Below, one piece after another: positions 144-6,410 of a stretch of DNA of 8,030 bases. The notes beneath the pieces were generated by a model, which saw only the letters and a list, made by a program, of their open reading frames with translations, was not told the DNA's origin and searched no databases. Positions within the stretch are counted from its first letter, which is position 1; each line of letters starts with the position of its first letter. Source of the stretch: Candidatus Hydrogenedentes bacterium CG07_land_8_20_14_0_80_42_17 (GTDB lineage Bacteria; UBA8481); the NCBI GenBank assembly GCA_002780065.1, contig PEWQ01000184.1, positions 1 to 8,030 on the forward strand. The letters run 5' to 3'. The translations under genes were made by a program, and so were the position numbers.

Positions 144-424
144 GGAGGCACGTGCGCCACACGTCAAAGGACGCCACGCGTCAAAGGACGCCACGCGTCA
201 ATGGGTGCCACACGTCAAAGGACGCCACACGTCAAAGGACGCCACGCGTCAATGGGCGCCACGCGTCAATGGACGCCCTCGCTATGGAGGCACAGGCGCA
301 CCGCGTCAATGGGCGCCACGCGTCAATGGGCGCCACGCGTCAATGGACGTCCGCGCCTGTGCAAGCTACGAATGCTTATCCAGCACGTGCAAGGCGTCCA
401 TTGACGCGTAGCGCACGTGCCTCC
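144..424. repeat. GC-rich element with ~32-bp terminal inverted repeats
   Basis: The first 32 bases (144-175, starting GGAGGCACGTGCGC) match the reverse complement of 393-424 at 29 of 32 positions. Between these ends lies an array of 17-bp units. A second copy of the GGAGGCAC end lies inside at 286-293 and starts a nested unit with its own 10-bp inverted repeat, GCACAGGCGC (290-299) against GCGCCTGTGC (353-362). G+C is about 60% or more, far above the flanks. No transposase and no clear target-site duplication are visible; the immediate flanks (CTCGTCAT left, GGATGAG right) weakly extend the inverted symmetry. It could be a non-autonomous MITE-like element, a structured palindromic repeat or a protein-binding array. 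The structure is seen directly; the function is unknown. Confidence 0.75.
158..350 (+). repeat. Array of ten 17-bp direct repeats
   Basis: Seven contiguous units run from 158 to 276. A 23-base interruption (277-299) carries the internal element end, and three more units follow at 300-350. The consensus is CACGCGTCAATGGGCGC, with AA/AT and A/G variants (e.g. CACACGTCAAAGGACGC). Units contain the palindrome ACGCGT, and GGCGCC forms at several unit junctions. An eleventh unit lies inverted at 394-410. Because 17 is not a multiple of 3, the array reads open in all three forward frames with a 17-residue repeat, so those frames are not taken as genes. The regular period resembles iteron-type binding arrays, but no replication protein is nearby. 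Confidence 0.85.
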
Positions 425-3415: not shown

Positions 3416-3652
3416 ATGAAACGAAGATGCATCTATTCTCGTGAAGAATTGTTGAGACAAAGTAAATTATCTCTTAGGGCAAAACTTAGAGCATTGGAAA
3501 ATTATGGGCGCTTATTGCAACTCACAAAGAAAACTCAATCTATGCAGGAAGATAATTCTTCGAGAGAAGATAATTCTTCGAGAGAAGATAATTCTTCTTC
3601 AATCAAGCAAGACTTGCGTAAAAGTCGTTCCCTTTGTCATCGACAAGAATGA
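3416..3652 (+). CDS. Small hypothetical partner of the nucleotidyltransferase, with repeat-derived tail
   Basis: The 78-residue product starts 9 bp after the nucleotidyltransferase stop and is probably translated from the same message. Residues 1-40 ([15 protein letters not shown], then [19 protein letters not shown]) look like one or two amphipathic helices. The pattern of a REE-L start followed by L-x-x-KL-x-x-LE resembles small ORFs I recall beside such nucleotidyltransferases; this was not checked. From residue 45 the sequence becomes [17 protein letters not shown], encoded by an 18-bp DNA repeat. The final ~16 residues are read antisense to the end of the fumarase gene (50-bp overlap). 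The conserved part probably ends near residue 42 and the tail looks like an accidental extension. The product may be unstable or the gene partly degraded. Confidence 0.5.
3548..3597. repeat. 18-bp hairpin-forming tandem repeat (2.8 copies)
   Basis: GAAGATAATTCTTCGAGA occurs at 3548-3565 and 3566-3583, with a partial copy at 3584-3597, all identical. Each copy holds GAAGA-TAAT-TCTTC, and each junction holds TCTTC-GAGA-GAAGA, whose GAGA would be a GNRA-type tetraloop in plus-strand RNA. Several alternative hairpins can therefore form. The repeat lies between two convergent genes, six bases before the fumarase stop, and could act as a weak bidirectional transcription end or RNA-stability element. 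It is also translated as the tail of the small upstream gene. Confidence 0.85.
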
Positions 3653-5339: not shown

Positions 5340-6410
5340 ATGAAAAGAATTTGTAGCTCAAATTGGTTATTTGCATTACTCCTGACAGTTATTTTAATTT
5401 TGCCTTCCTATTCTTCAGTTACTTTTTATTCGTCCAATCCTACGGTTTCTTATTCGTCTTTGACTAATAGTAAAAAATTAGATTATCAAGTCATGTACTT
5501 CATTAAGGGCGCAAAATATACACTTGATGTCGCGGTTTACAATCTGACGCATCCTGAAATTACAGATTCTCTGATTGCGGCGCATAAAAAGGGTGTTAGA
5601 GTTCGAGTTGTCACCGATTACAATAATTGGAATAAATATTGCCGGAAACTTGTGGACAATGGAATTCAGGTTGTCAAAGGGCAATCGGCTACTGACAGAC
5701 ACATGCATCATAAGTTTATTATTAGAGATTCGAATGCTGTTCTTACGGGATCATACAACTTTACTAAGAACGGAGCTCGGCTTGATAAAAATACGATTGC
5801 GGTTTTTAAATATGCCAATGCTATGGCTGAACTTTATACTCGGGAATTTGAACAGATGTTTGTAGGCAAAAAATTTGGAACTTACAAAACCTATATGTCG
5901 GCTCGTTCAGGAAAAAGAGTCACAATTGGTAGCAAAACAAAATTTGACGTCACAGTTTATTTTTCACCTGAGGGCGGAATAACCGATGCTTTGGTAAGAG
6001 AGATTGACAAAGCTGACACAAACATTTATTTCAGCATGTACACATTTACAGATAAAAGCATAAGTGATGCAATGCTCAGAGCAAAAAGCCGTGGAGTAAA
6101 AATATACGGCGCGTTTGACAGAGACCAAAATGACAATTCCAGTTATTCGAAATTTCAGACTTTAAAAGATGCACGATGCTATGTAAGGCTCGATAAGCTT
6201 TCTGCGGCATACGGAGGACTACTTCACGACAAGATAATGGTTATCGATAATGGGTATACTTCTGATGCGATTGGGATTATTGGTAGCTTCAACTTCACTA
6301 ATCAGGCTGATTCTATAAATGATGAAAATATGGTAATTATTCATAGGCCTACTAGTGCGCGGTCGTTAAAGACTCATGTCTATAATGCTTACTCAAAGAT
6401 GAGTGAATAG
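5340..6410 (+). CDS. Secreted phospholipase D-family protein with two HKD motifs
   Basis: Members of this superfamily hydrolyse phosphodiester bonds in phospholipids or nucleic acids. The 356-residue product starts with a signal peptide (MKRICSSNW, hydrophobic 10-22, cleavage near 25), so it acts outside the cytoplasm. Two catalytic repeats are intact: HHKFIIRD with His123, Lys125, Asp130 followed by GSYNFT (137-142), and HDKIMVID with His296, Lys298, Asp303 followed by GSFNFT (315-320). Each repeat begins with the expected segment (YFIKGAKYTLDVAVYNLTHP from 53; LVREIDKADTNIYFSMYTFT from 218). The pattern is like bacterial Nuc-type endonucleases and PLDc_2 proteins, duplicated in one chain. 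Nuclease or lipase activity cannot be decided from sequence. A strong Shine-Dalgarno precedes it, and thiD follows after 29 bp, so the two may share a message without an obvious functional link. Confidence 0.92.
   Translation: MKRICSSNWLFALLLTVILILPSYSSVTFYSSNPTVSYSSLTNSKKLDYQVMYFIKGAKYTLDVAVYNLTHPEITDSLIAAHKKGVRVRVVTDYNNWNKYCRKLVDNGIQVVKGQSATDRHMHHKFIIRDSNAVLTGSYNFTKNGARLDKNTIAVFKYANAMAELYTREFEQMFVGKKFGTYKTYMSARSGKRVTIGSKTKFDVTVYFSPEGGITDALVREIDKADTNIYFSMYTFTDKSISDAMLRAKSRGVKIYGAFDRDQNDNSSYSKFQTLKDARCYVRLDKLSAAYGGLLHDKIMVIDNGYTSDAIGIIGSFNFTNQADSINDENMVIIHRPTSARSLKTHVYNAYSKMSE

Follow-up and report, generated by a model that had tools for sequence, protein, structure and literature searches.

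A GGAG-tagged REP/BIME-like repeat family with a variable tandem array in its hairpin in a Candidatus Hydrogenedentes genome

Introduction

REPs consist of a tag, most often GTAG, and a palindrome; they are extragenic, are often arranged as inverted dimers with conserved spacers, and are found downstream of genes (PMC3733652, PMC8266576, PMC3116915, PMC2817692). In the open-access texts on REPs that we consulted, loops reach at most 27 bp, and a tandem array at the tip of the hairpin is not described there. An arrangement of another kind is seen in the pneumococcal BOX, boxA-(boxB)n-boxC, in which the number of boxB modules varies (PMC3049150). Here, we describe a tandem array of 17-bp units in a contig of Candidatus Hydrogenedentes bacterium CG07_land_8_20_14_0_80_42_17. 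The array is part of a lineage-specific, dispersed REP/BIME-like family, which is set apart by a GGAG tag and by the BOX-like tandem array carried in its hairpin.

Results

The window, i.e., the whole 8,030-nt stretch that we analysed, is contig 173 of the host genome (G000), a 2.39-Mb draft of 207 contigs with an estimated completeness of 87%. Tandem Repeats Finder placed a 17-bp array of 11.1 copies at positions 155-349. The initial annotation had described ten direct 17-bp units and one inverted unit enclosed by inverted ends, and this was confirmed: seven direct units occupy 157-275, three occupy 299-349, the inverted one lies at 392-411, and 144-175 is complementary to 393-424 at 29 of 32 positions (91%), whereas 100 dinucleotide shuffles of 121-460 gave no 32-nt inverted match above 21/32. 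When the 281-nt stretch 144-424 was folded, both strands were far more stable than shuffles (z of -8.8 and -7.7 as DNA, and -10.7 and -7.6 as RNA). The AT-rich surround of the element was also borne out.

On the forward strand, the window starts with an AT-rich spacer module (1-143, right end TATAACTCGTCAT), near-identical copies of which are present at dozens of loci, and in which 60 bp are exactly duplicated (1-60 = 61-120). It is followed by an extra 5' head composed of a GGAG tag and the 9-nt arm GCACGTGCG (144-156), and by seven 17-bp units with the consensus CCACGCGTCAATGGACG (157-275), the whole segment extending to 285. A second GGAG tag with the 9-nt arm GCACAGGCG (286-298) forms the 5' half of hairpin 1 (286-362), whose 55-nt loop contains three units and TCCG (299-353), and whose 3' half is the arm CGCCTGTGC (354-362), complementary to 290-298 and recovered in the fold as well. 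The second element end noticed previously at 286 does have its own inverted repeat, at 290-298/354-362, close to the 290-299/353-362 claimed. The linker AAGCTACGAATGCTTATCCA (363-382), which resembles those at seven other loci (L007, L054, L056, L073, L106, L107 and L109), separates hairpin 1 from hairpin 2 (383-424). The latter is inverted, on the reverse strand, and consists of a GGAG tag, the GCACGTGCG arm, one 17-bp unit and the TGCACGTGC arm; it also appears in the fold. Positions 425-450 (GATGAGAAGAATTTTCATTTTGTTGG, no strand assigned) are probably a degenerate start of an outer spacer, with a weak match to locus L065 and, by eye, to L106 and L073.

This order had been taken for one palindromic element inserted into or duplicated within another. 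A REP-like dimer, in which the linker connects 286-362 to the inverted 383-424, with an extra tag-and-array segment (144-285) in tandem ahead of it, is the better reading. A similar tandem repetition of the 5' part occurs at four other loci (L085, L096, L102 and L111), where the heads are repeated with a period of 21-25 nt. The array was rejected as a coding sequence, as the three overlapping ORFs merely track a 51-nt triple repeat, and as a CRISPR, as the units are contiguous and have no unique spacers between them. In Rfam, the only matches were to microRNAs; they were below threshold and fell mostly within the AT-rich part. Elsewhere in the window, a perfect 18-bp tandem repeat, GAAGATAATTCTTCGAGA (3548-3597, 2.8 copies), lies inside a small ORF (3416-3652), and the protein encoded at 5340-6410 looks secreted, has two PLD-like domains and resembles the nuclease NucT.

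A BLAST search with 136-430 hit 75 places in the host genome. The unit motif CGTCAAWGGRCG gave 272 matches there with up to one mismatch, versus 33 for its reversed control, and the GGAG-tagged end motif GGAGGCACAGGCG gave 222 with up to two mismatches, versus 41 for the control, leaving more than 150 tagged ends above background. The initial annotation had proposed to look for multiple scattered copies that share their ends but differ in unit number, and the host genome contains them; the outcome of a single copy is ruled out. A census based on the genome searches and on 95 fetched stretches around the matches, aligned by eye and by script, comprised 211 units in 87 arrays, 40 of them single-unit, although a contig end is found no more than 300 bp away from 53 of the 84 element clusters, which lowers the confidence in the census and in the exact unit counts, those of long arrays included.

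The copies are built alike: T-GGAG is followed by a 9-nt arm, the loop, a 9-nt arm complementary to the first, and then AAGC or TTGC, with the TGGAG tag unpaired. Among 142 heads, GGAG was exact in 102 and the preceding T was present in 119, while GTAG was found in 3. The 5' arms belong to the classes GCACAGGCG (82 copies), GCACGTGCG (19), GCATGTGCG (6) and GCACGCACG (6), and the partner arms change with them, to CGCCTGTGC, CGCACGTGC, CGCACATGC and CGTGCGTGC, respectively. In 42 copies, in which the second arm could be located by its position and a recognisable GTGC end, a mean of 4.90 of the 5 inner pairs was formed, as compared with a mean of 4.37 and a maximum of 4.64 in 2000 shuffles, a comparison that does not amount to a strict probability, as the copies are related. 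The basal arms co-vary.

Loop lengths cluster at 3/4, 20/21, 37/38, 54/55, 71-74, 88 and 105 nt, that is, at 3-4 + 17n, and the number of units ranges from 0 to 9. The form with n=1, of about 42-46 nt, folds as a bulged hairpin (z -5.0), in which an internal loop separates a 9-bp stem from a 5-bp GCGTC/GACGC stem that is capped by an AATG loop. Given this fold and the regular increments in loop length, the 17-bp unit is best read as the apical tip of the hairpin, and forms with larger n as repeating this apical part. The apical stem of the unit is conserved, and compensatory changes in this mini-hairpin did not exceed those in shuffles. The spacing of units was 17 in 107 cases and 18 in 17 cases. 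Units were more alike within arrays (identity of 0.921) than between them (0.868; permutation maximum of 0.884), suggesting that the arrays grew in place, which fits amplification after the arrival of each copy.

After many hairpins, a linker like AAGCTACGCATGCTTATCC leads to an inverted second hairpin whose tag faces outward, as at loci L001, L007, L054, L073, L093, L102, L106, L107, L109 and L111. These pairs have the architecture of BIMEs and REPINs: hairpin-forming inverted repeats with outward tags and a conserved spacer. One dimer is often connected to the next by the AT-rich spacer, and a GGAGGCAC head lies within 45 nt of 46 of the 131 matches to the AT-rich module. As this module of about 90 bp (AATTGAAAAATGAAAATTGG...TTTGCAATTTCAAATAT) occurs also without the hairpin element (contigs C36, C53, C119, C6, C183 and others of the host genome), it represents another dispersed repeat family, which is frequently attached to the hairpin family. 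Exact duplications like that of 1-120 recur at other contig starts (L040, L066 and L080), suggesting assembly end effects in the AT-rich spacer. A third repeat, AGAGATTGCTTCGCACCTTCGGTGCTCGCAATGACA, was seen near the AT-rich module at L014, L055, L056 and L104. The flanks of the hairpin elements are mosaic.

The copies lie mainly between genes and are biased to gene 3' ends. A simple ORF caller placed 78 of the 84 strong clusters outside predicted ORFs, and the remaining six may be in ORF extensions. Gene ends facing the elements were 3' in 66 cases and 5' in 39, versus 34 and 42 in other gaps (Fisher p 0.023). Clusters with genes on both sides lay between tandem (15), convergent (9) or divergent (3) genes, against a baseline of 22, 6 and 10; the orientation classes alone (9 convergent and 3 divergent versus 6 and 10) gave p 0.07.

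Outside the host, BLAST revealed no relatives of the repeat in 59 other genomes; the repeat pattern had no matches in GTDB contigs, two patterns had none in IMG/VR, and PLSDB and INPHARED gave no matches either. Of 385 other genomes, 3 contained the bare hairpin core, each with one or two occurrences. Fumarase gave no placement of the host organism, its best hits (63-68%) being mostly to Verrucomicrobia and Rhizobiales. A genome of the same order (G001) had no excess of tagged ends (199 matches versus 429 for the control), but with only this one genome to represent the order in a sparsely sampled lineage, such absence says little about the age of the family.

The host genome contains four RAYT-like Y1_Tnp ORFs, all of which match the NCBI REP-associated tyrosine transposase model below its cut-off. 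In this assembly, 87% complete and broken at repeats, none of the four is flanked by two copies of the family. Two of them, on contigs C131 and C12, have inverted repeats of their own, of 34 and 28 bp. The motif GGGGWSAS is that of TIR-flanked transposases (PMC3733652), and sequences that fit it are present in the C131 inverted repeat (GGGGTCAG) and in the region upstream of the C2 ORF (GGGGACAC). The latter ORF, cut by the contig end, has one family copy with n=0 upstream. The fourth, on contig C205 (L024, 1387-2019), contains two unrelated GTAG palindromes (GTAGGGACAGGGCACCGCCCTGTCC) in frame inside its coding sequence, and these two are the only exact copies of this palindrome, GTAGGGACAGGGCAC(C/T)GCCCTGTCC, in the genome. 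On contigs C94 and C127, two copies in opposite orientation lie near each other, and by eye the genes that they enclose resemble ordinary housekeeping genes. As no RAYT-like ORF is flanked by two copies, it is the architecture of the family alone from which we infer its mobiliser.

Discussion

We consider it likely that the family consists of REP/BIME-like palindromes spread in trans by an HUH enzyme, and that their 17-bp tip was later amplified in place. The basic unit would be a GGAG-tagged imperfect palindrome located between genes, in which a 9-bp stem and a 5-bp apical stem are separated by an internal loop, with AATG as the loop at the tip, and two such palindromes would often be paired through a conserved linker with their tags outside, as in BIMEs and REPINs. 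The palindromes could have spread as single-stranded hairpins, with a Y1/RAYT-type HUH transposase recognising the tag and the stem. Replication slippage or unequal recombination may then have amplified the apical segment, which would produce 0-9 units and leave the tag and the basal stem undisturbed, in the manner of boxB variation in pneumococcal BOX. The copies might also have an effect on neighbouring transcripts.

Of the classes suggested in the initial annotation, a structured extragenic repeat agrees with these results, while a MITE and a DNA-binding array are not supported. A non-autonomous DNA transposon with TIRs of about 32 bp, moved by a DDE transposase and carrying an internal minisatellite, would account for the inverted ends of the tag-outside dimers and for the many dispersed copies. 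Yet single tagged hairpins, like tandem heads, occur as often as dimers do, many copies of the dimer have ends of two different arm classes, and no matching transposase ends were found in the host genome, which makes a MITE unlikely. We find it rather unlikely, too, that the array is a functional, non-mobile structure maintained by the host for protein binding, such as a nucleoid, gyrase or terminator-like site. Its highly conserved GCGTCAATGGACGC core, its bias to gene 3' ends and its strong folding would suit such a role, but the number of units differs widely among loci, local homogenisation suggests neutral tandem growth, no terminator-like site was found in the region, and the repeat is absent from the one genome of the same order.

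That the family is a separate repeat class, a tagged mobile hairpin with actively expanding apical mini-hairpins, whose array would be made or used by its own HUH enzyme (e.g., through strand transfer repeated at the tip) rather than by passive slippage, appears improbable to us. It is hardly credible that collapsed or chimeric repeats created the array during assembly: the position of 53/84 clusters within 300 bp of a contig end and the exact 60-bp duplication at the start of the contig would be expected of an artefact, but dozens of copies are located within contigs, have different genes on their sides, and differ in unit number and in variants.

With the REP/BIME-like reading, a sparsely sampled bacterial lineage gains a family of this kind whose tag differs and whose hairpin has a variable tandem array built in. 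With such a family, one could ask which parts of a REP hairpin are required by an HUH transposase, i.e., the tag and the basal stem alone, or also the tip. In the host genome, many contigs end at the repeat, and it may conceal genes, possibly its own transposase among them.

The family resembles the REPs, BIMEs and REPINs of E. coli, Pseudomonas and Stenotrophomonas in being a high-copy, extragenic, tagged imperfect palindrome, in its alternative stem classes with compensating changes, and in forming inverted dimers that have their tags outside and a conserved linker between the hairpins, with alternating spacers and a bias to gene 3' ends (PMC3733652, PMC3116915). It falls within the size and abundance range of REPs (imperfect palindromes of 20-50 nt, in high copy and mainly extragenic), and its n=1 form is a bulged palindrome, as are E. 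coli REPs. Unlike in REPs, the tag is GGAG and not GTAG or one of the published variants (GYAG/GYRG/GTRG/GTMG, GTGG), so the family is not filed with GTAG REPs, even though it works like REPs. It differs from them also in that the apical segment is present in 0-9 tandem copies, whereas the REP loops in the texts consulted are short or reach 27 bp, and in that no REP-flanked RAYT was found in its host genome. In this last respect, the family may be similar to the CGTC-tagged REPs, which lack a dedicated transposase (PMC3733652). About half of the copies do have CGTC immediately upstream of the tag, and it also occurs within the 17-bp unit, but it is not at the stem base, it is absent upstream of the TTCATCT-GGAG type, and the stem has neither the initial AT pairs nor the CCA tail of CGTC REPs. 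The parallel with BOX of Streptococcus pneumoniae is one of architecture, with no evident relation in sequence: in both, two pairing end modules enclose tandem inner modules, which vary in number and form folds of their own (PMC3049150), but the family described here has 17-bp units in place of boxB, and its ends are REP-like tagged hairpins in inverted dimers.
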